In this document: positions 15,299 to 39,415 of the stretch, in pieces
Layout of the letters: each line of letters opens with the position of its first letter
Position numbering within the stretch: position 1 is the first letter of the stretch
Assembly (NCBI GenBank): GCA_017453465.1
Contig: JAFTEV010000032.1
Location: forward strand, 1 to 39,415
Direction: 5' to 3'
DNA from: Bacteroidaceae bacterium
GTDB taxonomy: Bacteria > Bacteroidota > Bacteroidia > Bacteroidales > Bacteroidaceae
DNA: 39,415 nt
The notes under the pieces: model-generated
What the model saw: the letters and a program-made list of their open reading frames with translations, nothing else
Told to the model about the DNA's origin: nothing
Database searches by the model: none
Made by a program: the position numbers and the translations under genes

Positions 15299-15853
15299 AT
15301 GGAAAAAATAATTCTCGGCGTTGACCCAGGCACCAACGTAATGGGTTACGGCATCCTGCGCGTCGTTGGCAACAAAGCCGAACTGATGACCATGGGTGTC
15401 ATCGAACTTCACAAATACGAAAGCCACTACCTGCGGCTTGGCAAAATCTTCGAGCGCATCACCGGCATCATCGACTCGTTCCACCCCGACGAAATGGCCA
15501 TCGAAGCCCCCTTCTTCGGCAAGAACGTGCAGAGTATGCTCAAGCTGGGCCGTGCCCAAGGTGTAGCCATCACAGCCGCCATCATGCGCGACATCCCCAT
15601 CACCGAATACGAACCCCGCAAAATCAAGGTAGCCATCACCGGCAACGGTGCAGCCGCCAAAGAACAAGTAGCCGGAATGCTCCAGCGCATCCTCCACATC
15701 CCCGCAGAAGAAATGCAAGTGCAGTTCGATGCCACCGACGCCCTCGGCGCAGCCTACTGCCACTTCGTCCAGATGGGCAAACCCCAAGTGGATAAACACT
15801 ACGGCAGCTGGAAAGACTTCATTGCCAAAAATGCCGACAAGGTGCATCAATGA
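15299..15853 (+). CDS. ruvC: Holliday junction endonuclease RuvC
   Basis: 184 aa, close to the usual length. The RNase H-fold acidic residues are visible: D9 in [14 protein letters not shown]69 in MAIEAPFF, and the pair D144 and D147 in [13 protein letters not shown]. The FFGKN stretch with N-x-x-S-x-x-K-L-G-x-A-x-G matches the conserved dimer and junction-binding region. RuvC resolves Holliday junctions with RuvAB. Here it follows the AddA-like helicase-nuclease after about 107 bases of repeat DNA, so the pair may be co-transcribed. The ATG lies inside the final repeat unit (GTGAATGG), so repeat changes could alter the leader without touching the protein. Confidence 0.95.
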
Positions 15854-27503: not shown

Positions 27504-27534
27504 TTTGCAAATTGCAATAAAAAGCGTACCTTTG
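27504..27534 (+). promoter_or_regulatory. Promoter of the AAA ATPase gene
   Basis: TTTG at 27504-27507, a 19-base gap and TACCTTTG at 27527-27534 match both consensus boxes. The predicted leader is about 78 AT-rich bases before the ATG at 27619. Confidence 0.75.
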
Positions 27535-32300: not shown

Positions 32301-32922
32301 CGGCGGACTCGACCACGCACTCGCATCGGGCGAAGACATCAACATCTTCGTCATCGACACCGAAGTTTACTCCAACACCGGCGGACAGTCCTCCAAGGCC
32401 ACCCCAATCGGAGCCATCGCCCAGTTCGCAGCCGGCGGCAAGCGCATCACCAAGAAAGACCTCGGACTCATGCAGTCAACCTACGGCTACGTCTATGTAG
32501 CCCAGATAGCCATGGGAGCCGACAACGCCCAGTGCCTCAAAGCCCTGCGCGAAGCCGAAGCCTACCCCGGCCCATCACTCGTCATCGCCTACGCCCCCTG
32601 CATCAACCACGGCCTCAAAGCCAAAGGCGGCATGGGCAAGAGCCAGGCAGAAGAAGCCAAGGCAGTAGAATGCGGCTACTGGCACCTCTGGCGATTCGAC
32701 CCACGCCTCGCCGAGCAAGGCAAGAACCCCTTCCAGCTCGACTCCAAAGAGCCACAATGGGACAAATTCCAAGACTTCCTCGACGGCGAAGTGCGCTACC
32801 TCTCCCTCAAGAAAGTAAAGCCCAACGAAGCACAAGAACTCTTCGATGCCGCCAAGAAAGCAGCCCAGCACCGCTATGCCACCTACGTGCGCATGTCGAA
32901 GATAGACTACTCAGCCGAGTAA
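29368..32922 (+). CDS. nifJ: Pyruvate:ferredoxin (flavodoxin) oxidoreductase
   Basis: 1184 aa, the full length of the single-chain homodimeric enzyme. Domains in order: the TPP pyrimidine-binding domain with YPITPSSPMAEHVDEW near residue 32, the transketolase-C-like domain II, the gamma domain (about 415-620), two 4Fe-4S motifs (CIQCNKCAFVCPHAC from C690 and CLGCGNCVDVC from C742-745), and the C-terminal TPP domain with CSGCGETPYVKL near 815, GGDGASYDIGYGG and NTGGQSSKATP. It converts pyruvate and CoA to acetyl-CoA, CO2 and reduced ferredoxin, central to anaerobic metabolism. It is followed by a strong terminator and a large foldback. The coding sequence is markedly GC-rich, in contrast to the CRISPR locus after it. 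Also called por or pfo. Confidence 0.97.
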   Translation: MSKEKKFITCDGNTAAAHVAYMFSEVAAIYPITPSSPMAEHVDEWAVQGRKNLFGDTVLVQEMQSEAGAAGAVHGSLQAGALTTTFTASQGLLLMIPNMYKIAGELLPSVFHVSARTVASHSLCIFGDHGDVMACRQTGFAMLCEGSVQEVMDLSAVAHLAALETRVPFINFFDGFRTSHEYHKIEEMDMEDIRPLVPMDKVAEFRARALSPEHPEAKGMAENPETFFAHRESCNPFYEEVPAAVEKYMEAISKITGREYKPFTYYGAKDATDVIILMGSATEAAREAIDYANANGKKYGMVSVHLYRPFSVERLLAAVPKTVKRIAVLDRTKEPGASGEPLFLDVKDAFYGQENAPLIIGGRYGLGSADVTPTMILSVYKNLELPQPKDHFTLGIVDDVTFRSLPLDEEMALGGEGIFEAKFFGLGADGTVGANKNSVKIIGDNTNKYCQAYFSYDSKKSGGFTCSHLRFGDTPIRSTYQIKTPNFVACHVQAYLRMYDVTRGLRQNGQFLLNTIWEGDDLVKNLPNNIKKYFAEKNITVYYINATKIAQEIGLGNRTNTILQSAFFRITEVIPVDLAVEQMKKAIVKSYGKKGEDVVNMNYAAVDRGGEYKKLDVDPAWKNLPADPVEANDDPEFINKLVRPINAQNGDLLPVSAYKGYEDGMWEQGTAAYEKRGVAAFVPTWDAENCIQCNKCAFVCPHACIRPFVMDEKEAAGLDAAKLDMVAPPQFKGMKFRMQVGVMDCLGCGNCVDVCPGKKGNKALKMVPLEGELPEAKNWDYCVKNVASKQDLIDIKSNPRVSQFATPLFEFSGACSGCGETPYVKLISQLFGDREMVANATGCSSIYSGSIPSTPYTKNAKGQGPAWSNSLFEDFCEYGLGMALANKKMRARIVTLLNEACAKDDTPADFKAAAQEWIAGKDNADASKAAAAKLAPAIEAGRNAGCPICKQLSELSHYLVKRSQWIIGGDGASYDIGYGGLDHALASGEDINIFVIDTEVYSNTGGQSSKATPIGAIAQFAAGGKRITKKDLGLMQSTYGYVYVAQIAMGADNAQCLKALREAEAYPGPSLVIAYAPCINHGLKAKGGMGKSQAEEAKAVECGYWHLWRFDPRLAEQGKNPFQLDSKEPQWDKFQDFLDGEVRYLSLKKVKPNEAQELFDAAKKAAQHRYATYVRMSKIDYSAE

Positions 32923-32970
32923 CGCGAAAGCCAACAAAGCCATAGACCGACATTTATATCTATAATTAGT

Positions 32971-33002
32971 AAAAGGGATGCTGAGAGAACAGCGTCCCTT
33001 TT
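32971..33002 (+). terminator. Rho-independent terminator after PFOR
   Basis: A 13-bp stem with one G-U wobble (AAAAGGGATGCTG at 32971-32983, CAGCGTCCCTTTT at 32990-33002) has a 6-base loop. The T-run is the end of the right arm. Confidence 0.85.
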
Positions 33003-33072
33003 GCGAAAGAAAACGCACTGAAAAATGCAGTTTTATTTAGGGACTGCATTTTTTCTGTGCGTTTTCTTTCGC
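33003..33072. repeat. 70-base foldback between PFOR and the CRISPR locus
   Basis: The outer arms are a perfect 16-bp inverted repeat (GCGAAAGAAAACGCAC at 33003-33018 and its complement at 33057-33072). The inner arms pair 11 bp (AAAAATGCAGT at 33021-33031, ACTGCATTTTT at 33043-33053) around an 11-base loop. It starts directly after the PFOR terminator, has no T-run behind it and codes for nothing. It may be a second terminator, a protein-binding palindrome or a relic of a small mobile element. Confidence 0.7.
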
Positions 33073-33128
33073 ATTCATTCCCTTAAAATGGACTCTACCG
33101 ATTTATCTGTACGTTTTTGATATTAAAC

Positions 33129-33160
33129 AAAAAATGCCCACCGTTAAAGGTCGATGGGCT
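33129..33160 (-). terminator. Terminator of the predicted tracrRNA
   Basis: On the minus strand, GCCCATCG (33159-33152) pairs with CGGTGGGC (33143-33136) around an 8-base loop, with one wobble, followed by ATTTTTTG. Confidence 0.75.
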
Positions 33161-33214
33161 ACCTGAATGTTCTCACAACGGAATAATCCTTATTGTGATT
33201 TGCGAAAAATTAGT
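33129..33214 (-). ncRNA. Predicted tracrRNA
   Basis: The minus-strand RNA would begin at about 33213, read the anti-repeat CTAATTTTTCGCAAATCACA (plus-strand 33192-33214 region), then a small GGATTATTCC hairpin and end at the hairpin terminator, about 85 nt in all. The anti-repeat pairs with the crRNA repeat over 11 bp (TTGTGATTTGC), a one-base bulge (A13 of the repeat) and a further 11 bp (GAAAAATTAGT). A consensus promoter lies in the right place. This is the expected trans-activating RNA that pairs with crRNA and is bound by Cas9. It is divergent from cas9 and lies about 120 bases upstream of its start. Exact ends are inferred. Confidence 0.82.
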
Positions 33215-33217
33215 GTA

Positions 33218-33249
33218 CAAAGTTAAATGTTTTTTTCCAAACTCACAAA
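33218..33249 (-). promoter_or_regulatory. tracrRNA promoter
   Basis: On the minus strand, TTTG (plus 33246-33249), a 20-base gap and TAACTTTG (plus 33218-33225) match the Bacteroidetes consensus at both boxes. Transcription would start within the first bases of the anti-repeat. Its -33 box falls where the -33 box of the divergent cas9 promoter would be. Confidence 0.78.
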
Positions 33250-33266
33250 TATTTCAGAAAAAATTA

Positions 33267-33274
33267 TACCTTTG
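33267..33274 (+). promoter_or_regulatory. cas9 -7 element within repeat-like sequence
   Basis: TACCTTTG matches TAnnTTTG, 61 bases upstream of the cas9 ATG. No good -33 box is visible. The surrounding ATTTCAGAAAAAATTATACC aligns closely with the middle of the CRISPR repeat read in crRNA sense. Confidence 0.65.
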
Positions 33275-33335
33275 TAGCATAAAACCCACAAATCAATGAA
33301 TAAGTACCAGAAGTAGAATATAAAATACGACTGCA

Positions 33336-36300
33336 ATGAAGAATATTTTGGGACTGGACTTGGGAACCACAAGTATAGGTTGGGCATTAATTAAGACTGA
33401 TGCCAATAGTAATCCTTGCGAAATACTACGCATTGGAGTTAGACGAGTGCCTTTGGCAGAAAATGAAGACAACAAGTTTGTCAAGGGACAGTCAATTACA
33501 ATTAATTCAGAAAGAACAACCACAAGAGGAATGCGTAGGAATAATGACAGATATAAACTTCGACGACTGGCATTATCACAAAAATTGTCTTCGCTTGGAA
33601 TGGAACCAAGCGATGTGTTAATGAGACTCCATCTTTTGGAACTATGGCAACTTCGTGCAAAAGCAGTAACAGAAGAGGTGTCTTTGCCAGAATTAGGCAG
33701 AATACTCTATCATATCAACAAGAAAAGGGGGTACAAGCACTCAAACATTGATGAAGAAAAATCAAAACGTGACTTTGTCAAAAAGGTGAATGAACGCTAT
33801 ACGGAATTACATGGAATGAATATGACCATAGGCCAATACTTTGCATGGAAACTGACAGACACAGCCATCACAAAAGATGGTAAAACATATTACGTTTACA
33901 GGATAAAGGATCACGTCTTTCCCCGCAGAGCTTACGAGGAAGAGTTTGATGCCATCATGCAATGCCAACAGAAGTATCATCCTGTTGTACTGACCAACGA
34001 AGTCATCGACCATATAAAAAACAATATTATATTTTATCAGCGTGACTTACGTTCATGTAAGCATCTTGTTTCTGTTTGTGATTTTGAAAAAAGACATTTC
34101 TACGATAAGGAGGGCAACTTGAAACGTAACAAAAGGGATGAGATTGTCTATGATGGACCTAGAGTAGCACCGTGCTCGTCCCCTCTCTTTCAAATATTCA
34201 AAATATGGCAATCGGCCAACAATATACGCTTTCACAACAAGAGTAAGGAATATCTTGATATAACTAGAGAGCAAAGACGTGAGATAGCTTTCTTCATGGA
34301 CTGTAATGAGAAAATTGAGCTTGAGAATGTCAAGCGTATATTGGAGTTGAACGATAACTCTGGGTGGTATTGTGACAAAGCAATAAAAAATGGTATCAGA
34401 GGCAATAGAACTAAATACACAATAGTCAAGGCTTTATCAAGGCTCCCTCAAGAAAAGATAGCAGAAATTACCCGCTTTAATCTTGAGATGGAGCCAATAG
34501 GGATTTTTGACACCGAGACAGAGGAGGTTCTCATGAAGGTTAAGAAAACTTACCAACGTGAACCACTCTACAGGCTTTGGCACATCATATATTCTATAAA
34601 AAAAGAGGAAGAGCGCAAAAGTGCAGTGACAAAATTTTTATTGTCATTTGGCGTGGATGACGATGATGTGATACAAAAACTCGCTGGTATTGATTTCACA
34701 ACATTTGGCTACGGGAACATCTCTGCAAAGGCTATCTGTAGAATACTCCCCTATATGATGGATGGCATCGAGTATAGTGAGGCTTGCGAATACGTTGGTA
34801 TAAACCACTCTAACAGTTTGAGCAAGGAAGAAAATGACAAAAGGGAATTAATGAGCCAACTGCCGTCCTTGAAAAAGAATAGTCTCCGACAGCCTACAGT
34901 TGAAAAAATACTCAACCAAACTATCAATGTGTTCAATAGTATTAATGACCGTTTAAATAAAAAAGGAGAACACATCGATGAGGTTAGAGTAGAATTGGCT
35001 CGCGAGCTGAAGCAAAGCAAGGACGAACGCCACAAGGCGAGCGAAGATATGAAAGCCTTGGAAAGCAAGAACAATGAGTATAAATCTATCATAGAAAAGG
35101 AATATAATATAAAAGCGACAAAAAAAAATCTTTTGAGATACCGATTGTGGAAAGAGTCAAACAAGAGTTGCTTCTATTGTGAACAGCCAATCGGTTTCAC
35201 ATCATTCGCCAACGAGCTTGAGGAGGAACGTGAACACATCCTTCCAAAAAGTTTGCACTACGATGACAGTTTTGCCAACCAAGTGTGTTCCTGCAGGAAA
35301 TGTAACAGCGACAAAGGAGGACGCACTGCACTTGACTACATGCGTACTACACCCTATCTTCAGCAATATATTGACAAAGTAAACAGATTGTATCAGACCA
35401 ACAAAATAAGCGGAAAGAAATACTCTCATCTACTGGCATCATACGATGACTACATAAAACGGAAAGAGGCTGGAAAAGAGACTAAAGAGGACATCCAAAT
35501 ATGGGAGAAACCCATCGACCGGCAATTACGATTATCTCAATATATCTCAAGAAAGGCTATAGAAATACTCTCCTATGCCTGTCGTAATGTTGTGGCCACT
35601 AGTGGCACCGTAACTGCTATCATTAGACATGCATGGGGGTATGACACGTTGTTAAAAGAATTGAACTTGCCTGATTATCGCAATGCTAATTTAACGGAGT
35701 TTGTTGAGTATGTCAGCAAAGGGCAAAAGAAAAAGAGGGAAACCATAAAGAACTGGACAAAACGGCTTGATAACCGCCACCATGCCATAGACGCATTGGT
35801 AGTGGCTTGTACCTCAAGTTCAATGATACAGAAGATAAACACTATCCATGCTTCAAAACAAGAAATGCGTGATGAAATTACCAATGCAAGAAAAACATGG
35901 GACGAGAACAACATTCTTGTTCAGTGGTTACGGGAAAGATGCCCCTTCAAAAGACTATGTGTATTGCAACATGTTTCCTCCATTTTCATTTCCATGAAAG
36001 TGGGGAAAAAAGTTACGACGCCTGGAAAACGTAAAGAGTTTAAGCATGGTAAGCCCGTGATTAGGCAAGAAGGCCTGAAAATTCCACGTGGACCGCTACA
36101 TGAGGAGGCTCTATATGGCTCAATAATAATAAACGGAAAGAAAGAAATTGTCAAACGATATAAACTTGGTAAAGGTGCTATCGGATACCTTTTCAGAGGA
36201 AAAGAAAAGTGTGAGGTAAAAAGGGACAAGACTGGAAAATTCATAATAAAAGATAGCATTGCAGAAGTCCTTGACAGCATTGTGGACAAGCACATTAGAA

Positions 36301-37085
36301 CCTTAGTGGAGAAAAGGCTTAACCGTAAATTTCTCCCGAAGGGTGAGACTTATCGTTCAGAAGCTGAGAAAAAATTGCAGGAAGGCTGTGAATATGATGG
36401 CGAAAAAAGATGCAAAGAGGCGTTGGAACAACTTAACGGACTTGACGATGACCCTATCTACTTTGACGATGAGAAAACTCGTGCTGTCAAGTACATTCGT
36501 TGCAAAACAGGACTTAATGCTGTTCGTCCATTGAGATACAACGAGAAAAACGAGCCTATCACCTATGCCCTGCCCAAAAACAACCACCATGTGGCAATCT
36601 ACAGGGACGAACAGGGCAATATCGTGGAAAGCGTTTGCACCTTCTGGGAGGCTGTGGAACGTACAAACCATAAAATACCTTGCATTATTTGCAATCCAAA
36701 ACAAGTATGGGAAAACATTAAGATAAGGAAGGCAAGCGGAGAAGATTTCCCTCAAGCACTGATTGACTCCCTGCCAAAGTCAGATTGGACATTCGTGGAA
36801 AGTTTACAGCAAAACGAAATGTTCATCATAAATATGAATAGAGATGAGGTACTGTATTATATCGAAAGAAACAACTTCAGTACAATAAGTCATCACCTCT
36901 ACCGCGTACAGGCATTGTCAGAAGGAGATTACATATTTCGGCTTCATACAGACACAAAAACAGAGAGAAATTCGGAATCAAGTGCTAGTAAAAGGTTTGT
37001 TAGGTTGTCACTAAAACAGTTCTTTAAGACCCAACATCAAAAAGTAATAATTTCTATTTTGGGTGAAATATCCATTGCTCCCTGA
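33336..37085 (+). CDS. cas9: Type II-C-like Cas9 RNA-guided endonuclease
   Basis: 1249 aa. RuvC-I is ILGLDLGTTSIGWALI with catalytic D8. An arginine-rich bridge helix follows (about 58-85, RTTTRGMRRNNDRYKLRR), then an alpha-helical REC lobe to about 530. RuvC-II has E553 in VRVELAREL. The HNH domain (about 600-680) has E633-H634 in EREHILPKS and N657 in CNSDKGG, the 23-residue H-to-N spacing found in SpCas9. RuvC-III has H816 and D819 in HHAIDALVVA. The rest is the PAM-interacting C-terminal region. All nuclease residues are present, so I predict an active enzyme. The HNH also has C612, C615, C651, C653 and C656, which could bind zinc. The gene has clearly lower GC and AT-ending codons compared with PFOR and the gene at 37624, suggesting transfer. 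No cas1, cas2 or csn2 follows. IscB is excluded by the length and REC lobe. Confidence 0.95.
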   Translation: MKNILGLDLGTTSIGWALIKTDANSNPCEILRIGVRRVPLAENEDNKFVKGQSITINSERTTTRGMRRNNDRYKLRRLALSQKLSSLGMEPSDVLMRLHLLELWQLRAKAVTEEVSLPELGRILYHINKKRGYKHSNIDEEKSKRDFVKKVNERYTELHGMNMTIGQYFAWKLTDTAITKDGKTYYVYRIKDHVFPRRAYEEEFDAIMQCQQKYHPVVLTNEVIDHIKNNIIFYQRDLRSCKHLVSVCDFEKRHFYDKEGNLKRNKRDEIVYDGPRVAPCSSPLFQIFKIWQSANNIRFHNKSKEYLDITREQRREIAFFMDCNEKIELENVKRILELNDNSGWYCDKAIKNGIRGNRTKYTIVKALSRLPQEKIAEITRFNLEMEPIGIFDTETEEVLMKVKKTYQREPLYRLWHIIYSIKKEEERKSAVTKFLLSFGVDDDDVIQKLAGIDFTTFGYGNISAKAICRILPYMMDGIEYSEACEYVGINHSNSLSKEENDKRELMSQLPSLKKNSLRQPTVEKILNQTINVFNSINDRLNKKGEHIDEVRVELARELKQSKDERHKASEDMKALESKNNEYKSIIEKEYNIKATKKNLLRYRLWKESNKSCFYCEQPIGFTSFANELEEEREHILPKSLHYDDSFANQVCSCRKCNSDKGGRTALDYMRTTPYLQQYIDKVNRLYQTNKISGKKYSHLLASYDDYIKRKEAGKETKEDIQIWEKPIDRQLRLSQYISRKAIEILSYACRNVVATSGTVTAIIRHAWGYDTLLKELNLPDYRNANLTEFVEYVSKGQKKKRETIKNWTKRLDNRHHAIDALVVACTSSSMIQKINTIHASKQEMRDEITNARKTWDENNILVQWLRERCPFKRLCVLQHVSSIFISMKVGKKVTTPGKRKEFKHGKPVIRQEGLKIPRGPLHEEALYGSIIINGKKEIVKRYKLGKGAIGYLFRGKEKCEVKRDKTGKFIIKDSIAEVLDSIVDKHIRTLVEKRLNRKFLPKGETYRSEAEKKLQEGCEYDGEKRCKEALEQLNGLDDDPIYFDDEKTRAVKYIRCKTGLNAVRPLRYNEKNEPITYALPKNNHHVAIYRDEQGNIVESVCTFWEAVERTNHKIPCIICNPKQVWENIKIRKASGEDFPQALIDSLPKSDWTFVESLQQNEMFIINMNRDEVLYYIERNNFSTISHHLYRVQALSEGDYIFRLHTDTKTERNSESSASKRFVRLSLKQFFKTQHQKVIISILGEISIAP

Positions 37086-37134
37086 GATTATCCAAGGTGG
37101 AGATTATCAACACCTATTAAGAAATCCTATAGAA

Positions 37135-37165
37135 CAAAAAATCCTGACCAACAATGGCCAGGATT
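37135..37165 (-). terminator. Terminator downstream of the CRISPR array
   Basis: On the minus strand, AATCCTGGCCA (37165-37155) pairs with TGGTCAGGATT (37150-37140) with one wobble, around a 4-base loop, followed by TTTTTTG. The plus-strand version has a mismatch and no T-run, so it serves the minus-strand array transcript and not cas9. Confidence 0.75.
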
Positions 37166-37241
37166 CCATTTAGTTGCACCATTTTTTCTTTGCGAAAACC
37201 TACATATATTATTGGTATTTAAATTATTACCATTATAGGGG

Positions 37242-37408
37242 GGGGGCAAAGATACTAATTTTTCTGCAAATCACAACATGTCTGCAACAAGGACAAGACC
37301 CAGAGCGGGTGCAAAGATACTAATTTTTCTGCAAATCACAACCACGGAACTTTGCCGTTGCGTCGTAAAAGTGGGTGCAAAGATACTAATTTTTCTGCAA
37401 ATCACAAC
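37242..37408 (-). CRISPR. Three-repeat CRISPR array, antisense to cas9
   Basis: Three 36-base repeats lie at 37242-37277, 37307-37342 and 37373-37408, separated by unrelated spacers of 29 (37278-37306) and 30 bases (37343-37372). The second and third repeats are identical; the first differs at one base (G for T at position 4 on the plus strand) and extends a run of nine Gs. In crRNA sense (minus strand) the repeat starts GTTGTGATTTGCAGAAAAAT and continues TAGTATCTTTGCACCC, close to the GTTGTGATTTGC class of Bacteroidetes type II-C repeats. Orientation follows from the match to the tracrRNA anti-repeat. Each repeat contains TTG at positions 2-4, 19 bases, and TATCTTTG at 24-31, a full Bacteroidetes promoter. 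A GCACCC word in a GC-poor stretch at 37432-37437 (minus sense) may be the relic of a fourth repeat. No cas1/cas2 lies nearby. Confidence 0.92.
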
Positions 37409-37570
37409 TCACGCGGTTATTCTTTTTTTTGGGGTGCGGAACTGTCTATGTAGTTTGCACTGGTCATAATGTGCCTCATTATTTGTATCTTTTGAGGGCC
37501 ATTTTTCATTTTCAACTATGCTTTTACGCATTTTTTGCTGTTGAAATCTGACTTTCTTGCGTTTCGTTGC
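37409..37570. other. Non-coding region between the array and the next gene
   Basis: T-rich intergenic sequence lying on the promoter side of the array. It could include a leader, but apart from a GGGTGC word near 37432 I see no conserved element and no gene. Confidence 0.4.
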
Positions 37571-37600
37571 TTGCTGTGTGGAAGTTTTTGTGTACTTTTG
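37571..37600 (+). promoter_or_regulatory. Promoter of the acidic-tract protein gene
   Basis: TTG at 37571-37573, a 19-base gap and TACTTTTG at 37593-37600 match the consensus. It lies 23 bases before the chosen ATG at 37624, which supports that start over the in-frame ATG at 37567. Confidence 0.72.
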
Positions 37601-37623
37601 CAGATATTGACACGTTTTTGATT

Positions 37624-39096
37624 ATGGCTAAAAAGAATACAAAGAAGAAGGCGCAGGGGACACTGCAGGCCCTGTCGCCAGAGAGGTTCCTGAGGGAGAA
37701 GGCCAGGGGGCTGGAGATTGGCAAGTGTTATGTGTCGAAAGACATCAGGATGTATGGCGAGGGGCATGTGGTGGTGTGCCGACTGCACAAGACGGGGAGG
37801 GTGAGTGTGGCTTTTTACCTGCTGGATGTTTTCTGCCTGGGCGTGAAGGATACGTTCTACAGGCTCCGCATGGACGAGTATGAGTTTGAACATCTGCTCA
37901 GGACATTGCTGTCGGGGGAGAGCATCGTGGAGTGTACATACGACGAGGCGCACAACTGGGTGTATGGGGCTGTGGCTTTTGCCGAGGAAGCGGGCATTCG
38001 GCCTCACAGGGACTTCGGCTTGACGCAATACATGCTGAAGGAGGACACGGACGAGGTGCCGCTGATAGAGTTTGAGTTTGGAAGGGAGGGCAGGCATTTC
38101 CTTGTCTGCCACAGCAATCTGGAGGCAAGCAAGTATGTGCCTACGCTGAAGGCGCACCTGGGGGAGAACTTCGACGTGCTGATTGGGGACGGAAGGGATG
38201 TGTTTGACGAGGATGAGGAGGATGATGAGGAGGATGAGGAGGATGTGTTCGACTTTTCGGACCACCCGATGTTCAAGACTTACGGCCCCAGCACGGAGTA
38301 CAGCTATAGGCACCCGGAGTATCCGCAGGTGCTCACGCTGGAAAATCGGTGGCTGGCTCCAGAGCTGTGTGACCCGAAGAATGCCGTCAGGCTTGACGAC
38401 AAGCTGATTCATCGTATCTTGTCGCTTCCACGCGATAGTGCGAGACGCGACCTTGAGGCTCTCATCATGTTCCACATAGGGCTTACCTGCGACCACCTGC
38501 CAGAGGAGGAGGAGTTTAACGGCGTGGTTGGCACGGCCTCGATGTTGCTGGCCGAGGTGGGCAACGAGGACAGCAGCCTCGATGTGGTGCTGGAGGTGTT
38601 GCGCCAGTCGGAGGACTTCTATAATTATCACATCAATGATGCTGGCGAGGAGATTTTCACGCCCACCCTCTATAAGCTGGGGCAGCGTCGGTTGCAGAAG
38701 CTGATGGACTTTGCCAAGGAGGAGGGTCTCCACACGTATGGCAAATATCAGGTGTTCCCTGCTGTGGCTCAAATCGCCATCCAGCAACCAGAACGGCGCA
38801 GTGAAGTCGTTGAGTGGTTTCGCGAATACTTGCAGTTTGCCGTCGAAGCTTTGCCCGAAACGAAGAGCCTGGACAGCATCGTTGCGGGACTGATGGTTTG
38901 CGACCTTGTGAATATCCGCGCAAAAGAATTGCTCAGCGAGATTCGTGCTCTGTTCGACACGGGCCTGGTTGACATTGGCTGTTGCGGAAGGTATGAAAGT
39001 GTTGAAAGGGACATCTTGCACCCATCCTACCCCCCTTCCTGCAATGTCCATCTTGACATTTACGAAAGATTCGCTGAGCTTGGGAAATTCACTTAA
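37624..39096 (+). CDS. Conserved Bacteroidales protein with acidic tract, possibly DUF1186-like C-terminus
   Basis: 490 aa from ATG 37624 (basic start MAKKNTKKKAQG). The in-frame ATG at 37567 precedes the promoter and is rejected. The N-terminal part (about 25-190) has G-H-V-V-V-C-R-L-H-K-T-G, Y-L-L-D-V-F-C-L-G-V-K-D-T and Y-E-F-E-H-L-L, a pattern I have seen in unnamed Bacteroidetes proteins. An acidic tract (DEDEEDDEEDEED, encoded by GAGGAT-type microsatellite) lies near residue 197. The C-terminal half is helical with E-R-R-S-E-V-V-E-W-F-R-E-Y and may be DUF1186-like. No catalytic motif or signal peptide was seen. It follows the array on the opposite strand to the array transcript, with typical host GC content, so it is probably a flanking chromosomal gene. 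Confidence 0.65.
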   Translation: MAKKNTKKKAQGTLQALSPERFLREKARGLEIGKCYVSKDIRMYGEGHVVVCRLHKTGRVSVAFYLLDVFCLGVKDTFYRLRMDEYEFEHLLRTLLSGESIVECTYDEAHNWVYGAVAFAEEAGIRPHRDFGLTQYMLKEDTDEVPLIEFEFGREGRHFLVCHSNLEASKYVPTLKAHLGENFDVLIGDGRDVFDEDEEDDEEDEEDVFDFSDHPMFKTYGPSTEYSYRHPEYPQVLTLENRWLAPELCDPKNAVRLDDKLIHRILSLPRDSARRDLEALIMFHIGLTCDHLPEEEEFNGVVGTASMLLAEVGNEDSSLDVVLEVLRQSEDFYNYHINDAGEEIFTPTLYKLGQRRLQKLMDFAKEEGLHTYGKYQVFPAVAQIAIQQPERRSEVVEWFREYLQFAVEALPETKSLDSIVAGLMVCDLVNIRAKELLSEIRALFDTGLVDIGCCGRYESVERDILHPSYPPSCNVHLDIYERFAELGKFT

Positions 39097-39097
39097 T

Positions 39098-39229
39098 TAA
39101 AAGTTAAAAGTTAAAATGGGCTTTAAGTTAAAAGTTAAAATGCCATGCGGAATGCCCGTGCACTGCGCCAGCCCATTTTAACTTTTAACTTTTAACTTTT
39201 AACTTAAAGCCCATTTTAACTTTTAAGTA
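39098..39229. repeat. Palindromic AGTTAAA-unit repeat after the acidic-tract gene
   Basis: Left arm: TTAAAAGTTAAAAGTTAAAA, TGGGCTTTAAGTTAAAAG, TTAAAATG (39098-39140). Right arm: the complement at about 39175-39229, with two extra 7-base TTTAACT units. The centre has ATGCCATGC and GCGCCAGC-type bases. RNA from either strand would fold into a very long hairpin. GTTAAAATGCCATGC also occurs at 16780-16794. It probably ends transcription of the gene before it. Confidence 0.65.
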
Positions 39230-39415
39230 TCTGTTCAAAATTAATTGTACATATAATTTGTTTTTACCACAGATTACACGGATTACACTGATTTTGTTAT
39301 AATCCTAAAATCCGCAACTAATAGTCATGGGGACTAATTTTGCTGTCTGGTGCTCCATTTGACGATTCTTCTGTCGTTATAGACGTGATTATGTTTGTTT
39401 CTTCCCCACCTTCCC
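39230..39415. other. Gene-free right edge with CCACAGATTACACGGATT motif
   Basis: No gene can be supported. CCACAGATTACACGGATTAC at 39267-39286 is a tandem ACAGATTAC/ACGGATTAC/ACTGATT repeat of a kind common in Bacteroidetes intergenic DNA. Two minus-strand frames are open from the window edge to 39318 and 39334, too short to call a gene. Confidence 0.35.

Follow-up and report, generated by a model that had tools for sequence, protein, structure and literature searches.

Promoter-like elements in the CRISPR repeats of a Bacteroidaceae Cas9 locus and their conservation among Bacteroidales

We identified putative promoter elements, oriented in the crRNA sense, within each CRISPR repeat of a Cas9 locus in a 39,415 nt stretch of DNA from a Bacteroidaceae bacterium (JAFTEV010000032.1), hereafter the window. 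Sigma-ABfr is the primary sigma factor of the Bacteroidota, and each repeat of the window array quite probably acts as a sigma-ABfr promoter in the crRNA sense, with the tracrRNA-binding handle as its promoter spacer. Judged from comparison of related loci, such repeats are very probably promoters in Bacteroidales. The tracrRNA gene lies directly upstream of cas9 and divergent from it, and the array (37242-37408), which has three repeats and two spacers, lies downstream of cas9. The features of the locus are as follows.

33128..33197, minus strand: predicted remainder of the tracrRNA, with the tag CACAATAAGG followed by a hairpin (33136-33159) and a T run; the 3' end is a prediction
33193..33213, minus strand: tracrRNA anti-repeat, pairing from repeat position 2 to the start of the -7 box (-28.1 kcal/mol)
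33218..33248, minus strand: promoter-like TTG-N20-TAACTTTG belonging to the tracrRNA gene
33267..33274, plus strand: candidate cas9 -7 box TACCTTTG, upstream of cas9 and divergent from the tracrRNA promoter; putative role
33336..37085, plus strand: cas9, 1249 aa, reading frame intact (TIGR01865, 429 bits against a cut-off of 100)
37140..37165, no strand assigned: imperfect inverted repeat with a minus-strand T run, between cas9 and the array; possible terminator
37242..37277, minus strand: CRISPR repeat 3, cas9-proximal (TTG 37274-37276, TATCTTTG 37247-37254)
37278..37306, minus strand: spacer 2, 29 nt; full-length exact match to a viral contig (L297, 2173-2201)
37307..37342, minus strand: CRISPR repeat 2 (TTG 37339-37341, TATCTTTG 37312-37319)
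37343..37372, minus strand: spacer 1, 30 nt; full-length exact match to a viral contig (L296, 1186-1215)
about 37373 or the first base of the spacer, minus strand: predicted start from repeat 1, by box geometry
37373..37408, minus strand: CRISPR repeat 1 in crRNA order, at the trailer end (TTG 37405-37407, TATCTTTG 37378-37385)

The three 36-nt repeats, read on the minus strand, consist of GTTGTGATTTGCAGAAAAATTAGTATCTTTG followed by CACCC, CACCC or CCCCC, and their exact edge rests on two copies because the third differs at position 33. The sequence-only reading had described a complete Bacteroidetes promoter in every repeat, and its anatomy is borne out in 3/3 copies, with TTG at positions 2-4, 19 nt, and TATCTTTG at 24-31, five bases before the spacer. 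As regards the consensus that it invoked, the -7 box TAnnTTTG is there and the TTTG form of the -33 element is not, the repeats having GTTG and hence TTG only. The TTG is not independent evidence, because GTTG is common to nearly all of the listed repeats both inside and outside the class. TTG-N19-TAnnTTTG occurs at five sites in the window where 0.42 are expected, and none of 100 shuffles reached five; three of these sites are the array copies and represent one event by descent, and the others lie at 27505-27534(+) and 37571-37600(+), an ATG following the second of them after about 24 nt. TAnnTTTG alone shows no enrichment (22 sites, 16.5 expected).

The locus is a Cas9 locus related to II-C, its subtype being given by resemblance only. 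No reading frame is present between cas9 and the array, and the frames adjoining the locus appear to be other than cas1 and cas2. The draft genome (85 % complete) gave no match to type II cas1 (TIGR03639, E 0.001) and none to two other cas1 models searched at E 1e-60 only, while a genome search with the repeat and its upstream DNA (E 0.001) returned these three copies only. Rfam contained nothing above the gathering score in 32900-37700. The tracrRNA promoter-like site and the candidate cas9 -7 box face away from each other and together occupy 57 bp (33218-33274). On the far side of the array, the adjoining frame at 37624-39096(+) includes an acidic stretch and has no NCBIfam match, and nested perfect inverted repeats of TTAAAAGTTAAAA units, with up to 37 nt per arm, occupy 39097-39226.

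Both spacers match viral contigs exactly over their full length, and neither match sits in an array within the 131 and 141 nt of surrounding sequence inspected. The 3' flanks of the two protospacers in the crRNA sense, CATACGCC and CATCCGCT, share CATnCGC; the two 5' flanks show no mutual agreement. A type II PAM is expected 3' of the protospacer in the crRNA sense, and the viral matches together with the PAM-side CATnCGC therefore support the crRNA sense independently of the promoter. CATnCGC is accordingly a candidate PAM for the window Cas9, from two sites only. One protospacer falls within a 529-aa frame that, by eye, looks terminase-like.

For comparison we utilized Cas9 loci obtained from searches of relatives, of the phylum, of the class and of a named genome collection (best 80 of 559). 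An array finder, which may have missed arrays, detected arrays in 158 of 214 sources, or 155 after removal of three duplicates; this non-duplicate set underlies the lineage counts, box spacing, pairing ends and tracrRNA-box rates, and other counts include duplicates. Repeats of 44 nt or more are termed long. Repeats were oriented by their GTTG-type start, with ties settled by likeness to the common Bacteroidales repeat start, membership of the Bacteroidales was taken from record titles of named loci, and loci outside Bacteroidia were recognised by kinship labels. With start positions 21-29 allowed, an exact box was present in 47/52 long and 2/9 short repeats of Bacteroidales, thus absent from 12/61 overall, in 9/47 long and 0/16 short repeats of other Bacteroidia, and in 1/11 long and 4/20 short repeats outside the class (5/31 together). 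None of the 14 arrays found among 19 control loci of other types in the class, typed from cas1 alone and including one cas1 match under the cut-off (L295), contained the box on either strand. The position of the box is not fixed, its start moving between positions 23 and 28 in different lineages, a slide of up to 5 nt, and the TTG-to-TA spacing is N18-N19 in 48/58.

The closest relative found, L177 from an uncultured Prevotella, has a Cas9 59 % identical in the best segment, and its 47-nt repeat contains TACCTTTG; the nn and the handle differ from those of the window, the tracrRNA differs to match, and TA and TTTG are kept. This comparison suggests that the 36-nt window repeat may be a shortened 47-nt form. 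L177 was missed by the array finder, probably because of a deleted repeat. In its long array, at 15302(-), a 19-nt deletion takes out the -7 box of one repeat, which is a natural promoter-less repeat. Other 35-36-nt repeats carry a box that is exact or one letter off, 5-6 nt ahead of the spacer (L211, L102, L107, L269, L276 and L092); these are scattered on the Cas9 tree, and L107 is labelled outside the class. Eight further short repeats have such a box at 3-8 nt from the spacer (L110 and, outside the class, L071-L073, L075, L076, L079 and L080).

Flavobacterium-type 36-nt repeats end in GATATT and are without TAnnTTTG (L077, L109, L115, L116, L117, L122, L123, L125 and L259), although the anti-repeat is present in L077, L123, L125 and L259. 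Loss of the box with the anti-repeat kept had been named in advance as evidence against the promoter, and it is encountered in part, in these repeats; beyond Bacteroidales the box is also often eroded to TAnnTT, its last pair varying. Short box-less Bacteroidia arrays have TAnnTTTG within 200 nt upstream in 7/19 cases (1.9 expected), and by reason of this excess may use an external promoter. In eight loci labelled outside Bacteroidia with 45-46-nt repeats (L084, L085, L086, L096, L098, L119, L124 and L128) CTTTG is kept and TA is absent (TTTCTTTG, GTTCTTTG), which may reflect another promoter code.

Conservation was followed on a Cas9 tree (FastTree, midpoint root, 152 of 158 arrays, used without support values). 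As a MAFFT repeat alignment blurred the sliding box, the motif itself was used to anchor the columns, and permuted motifs served as control. In Bacteroidales repeats (50 arrays) the parsimony steps across the box were T0 A1 n8 n4 T2 T1 T3 G2, against 7, 8, 12 and 7 in the upstream flank and 17, 18, 21 and 15 downstream; the Bacteroidales tracrRNA promoters (42) gave T1 A2 n16 n15 T2 T2 T2 G5. Repeats of other Bacteroidia gave 5,4 / 17,11 / 1,3,16,13, TAnnTT alone being firm, and their tracrRNA promoters 1,4 / 12,12 / 5,2,3,15, where of the last pair the G alone varies. Among 99 long Bacteroidia repeats TANNTTTG was exact in 56, each of the other 29 letter orders being exact in at most 7, and the total steps at specified columns were 48 for the true motif, 75 for the next-best order and 124 at the median. 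When the full TATCTTTG served as the anchor, all eight letters included, a choice that favours nn equally with the other columns, the long Bacteroidia repeats gave 5,5 / 24,15 / 3,4,19,16. In these repeats nn is free, TA and TT are firm, and the last pair is not. The pattern is shaped like a -7 element, resembling that in the tracrRNA promoters of the same loci, and the prediction that the box would be conserved beyond the needs of tracrRNA pairing holds in the free nn between firm TA and TT, above all in Bacteroidales. Where the tracrRNA box of a locus lacks the final TG, the repeat box tends to lack it as well (Fisher P = 0.008, kinship ignored).

The repeat-tracrRNA duplex of the window stops at the first bases of the -7 box. 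Among loci with an exact box and a tagged tracrRNA, pairing ended before the box or no more than 2 nt past its first base in 38/49, and by gap-permitting alignment ran further into the box in the other 11. A TAnnTTTG belonging to the tracrRNA itself, 24-42 nt before the anti-repeat end, was found in 39/47 Bacteroidales, 24/49 other Bacteroidia and 1/14 loci outside the class; TTG stands at N18-N20 before 41/64 tracrRNA boxes, with a peak at N19-N20. From the position of this TAnnTTTG, transcription of the tracrRNA most likely begins close to the anti-repeat, roughly at the point corresponding to the onset of the box in the repeat.

The arrangement of the boxes suggests how each repeat might operate. 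The -33 box would be supplied by the GTTG at the repeat start, the promoter spacer by the tracrRNA-binding handle of roughly 19 nt, and the -7 box by TATCTTTG. We infer from this geometry both that polymerase uses the repeats and where it would start, about five bases past the box, which is the repeat/spacer edge in a 36-nt repeat. A start at that edge, as the sequence-only reading proposed, fits the 35-36-nt forms; in 46-47-nt relatives the predicted start would instead lie about 11-12 nt inside the repeat. A pyrimidine-purine step occurs at the predicted start in 33/48 distinct tails and 12/23 after clustering (P = 0.007 at this site and 0.07 over all sites, both after clustering), and is suggestive at most. 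The expected RNA would comprise a spacer and the handle of the next repeat, with the tracrRNA pairing up to the next -7 box. Repeat 3 would supply the handle for spacer 2, and its own promoter would point out of the array towards cas9. Read-through from all upstream repeats would sum towards the cas-proximal end, which would be the side on which new spacers enter, as described in the literature for relatives.

A wider reading can be drawn from this arrangement, for which, taken in all its parts jointly, we hold the chances to be about even. The handle would be at once, as DNA, a sigma-ABfr promoter spacer and, as RNA, the tracrRNA-binding sequence, throughout Bacteroidales and more weakly in other Bacteroidia. 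The tracrRNA would begin approximately level with the onset of the -7 box in the repeat, and the duplex would thereby leave the box free. Summed read-through would give the newest spacers most crRNA, since transcription of such arrays is presumed to run in the direction of the leader, and the embedded promoter would track the sigma code of the host when the locus moves between classes.

Variation among copies within arrays was followed in 887 internal copies from 58 arrays, a count that left out first copies, copies with more than 4 mismatches and copies of other length. With 24 distinct events in all the mutations are few; the box was hit by 3 of the 16 events away from repeat ends, where about 2.6 are expected, and thus was not spared. 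Break points of trailer repeats, taken by eye without an identity threshold, look scattered over the repeat, the box being among the places hit. Many arrays open, in crRNA order, with a truncated copy, its 5' part being replaced and the box and tail kept (for example L158, L136, L097 and L226). Degeneration of first repeats (4.6 % mismatch in the box, 28 % in the handle) was considered as proof of the promoter and rejected, as the difference is forced by the 55 % identity threshold and the tail is equally kept.

That the box is not specially spared in internal copies or at break points accords with its being an ancestral leftover, maintained by repeat copying alone. On the same Cas9 tree, however, the flank and nn columns turned over and TA and TT did not, and we consider this explanation highly improbable. 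Conservation of the box could also have some other DNA or RNA reason, such as Cas1-Cas2 integration or the handling of pre-crRNA by Cas9 or RNase III, its likeness to a -7 element being incidental. The box sits within the repeat that Cas1-Cas2 copies, nn in the exact repeat boxes is mostly TC (39/49) and so less varied than in the tracrRNA promoters, and the last box letters drift outside Bacteroidales. Such a reason is nevertheless unlikely, as nn is free between frozen TA and TT with tracrRNA promoters behaving alike, the position slides, and the box is rare outside the class; moreover the window array retains it in a draft genome, 85 % complete, in which no type II cas1 was found at E 0.001.

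The remaining alternative is an external promoter on the trailer side combined with cutting by RNase III and tracrRNA as in type II-A, the boxes in the repeats being silent or weak. TAnnTTTG occurs within 200 nt upstream in 18 of 38 exact-box arrays, where 4.2 are expected, and in L240 a TTG-spaced box stands 107 nt upstream of a terminal repeat that has lost TA. Some of these upstream boxes, however, are those of a truncated first repeat, and in the window a scan of the crRNA strand for the exact sigma-ABfr box TAnnTTTG found none over some 1.8 kb leading into the array; the nearest lies at 39236-39243, past a divergent reading frame. Transcription from an external site alone thus appears rather improbable, and promoters within the repeats are the reading that we prefer.

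Promoters within type II repeats have precedents in several bacteria. In Campylobacter jejuni differential RNA sequencing and primer extension identified one in each repeat, the 3' end of the crRNA still being made by RNase III (PMC3656092). The window resembles that system in its minimal Cas9 locus and in crRNA units deriving from promoters in the upstream repeats, measured there and predicted here; the C. jejuni repeat, however, ends in an extended -10 element (GGTAAAAT), whereas the window has an internal -7 TAnnTTTG with the handle as promoter spacer (PMC3656092). The II-C system of Neisseria meningitidis is cited as having a promoter in every repeat, no identified leader promoter and a dispensable RNase III, and differs in that its repeats end with an extended -10-type element of the sigma-70 code (cited in PMC5006608 and PMC7038990). 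The II-C repeat of Clostridium cellulolyticum also contains an extended -10-like element, and its array is transcribed opposite to the cas genes, as predicted for the window; the element differs in its sigma-70-type code and its place in the terminal nine nucleotides (PMC7038990).

Within the phylum, a TTG 33 bp before each spacer was proposed as a promoter in the II-C array of Flavobacterium columnare, for which there were eight array reads (PMC8092290), and the same motif at 35 bp in F. psychrophilum, where TAnnTTTG was named for cas9 (PMC10309648). These systems share with the window a proposed repeat-encoded promoter and transcription towards the leader, and the general idea of repeat promoters in Bacteroidota is thus already partly in print; in the sections available, however, both reports name TTG alone for the repeat, and the Flavobacterium-type 36-nt repeats of our set are without TAnnTTTG (PMC8092290, PMC10309648). 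The accessible portion of the open-licence literature likewise did not name TAnnTTTG as part of II-C repeats. The II-C repeat of Bacteroides fragilis (Table 1 of PMC9367070), read on the opposite strand, contains TATCTTTG, and in the available text of PMC5704556 the leader of this system is not assigned. One Cas9 clade has repeats of 45-50 bp (PMC7606464). The -7 and -33 motifs of B. thetaiotaomicron are described together with purine starts (PMC7366714). The set of loci analysed here spans long and short repeats. We know of no CRISPR array in B. thetaiotaomicron.

If the window repeats are promoters, transcription of each spacer from its own repeat would reach beyond sigma-70 bacteria into a major gut phylum that uses a different promoter code, and would account for crRNA from a short array in which no leader is recognised. 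A further consequence would be that prediction of promoters from other signals can miss sites within repeats, as in Riemerella, where a study reported, in the text available, no promoter in the repeats (PMC5006608) and the repeat in our set (L235) contains TATCTTTG. Reading the repeats as promoters would open to direct test how much crRNA is made, what becomes of single spacers and how output is graded along the array.
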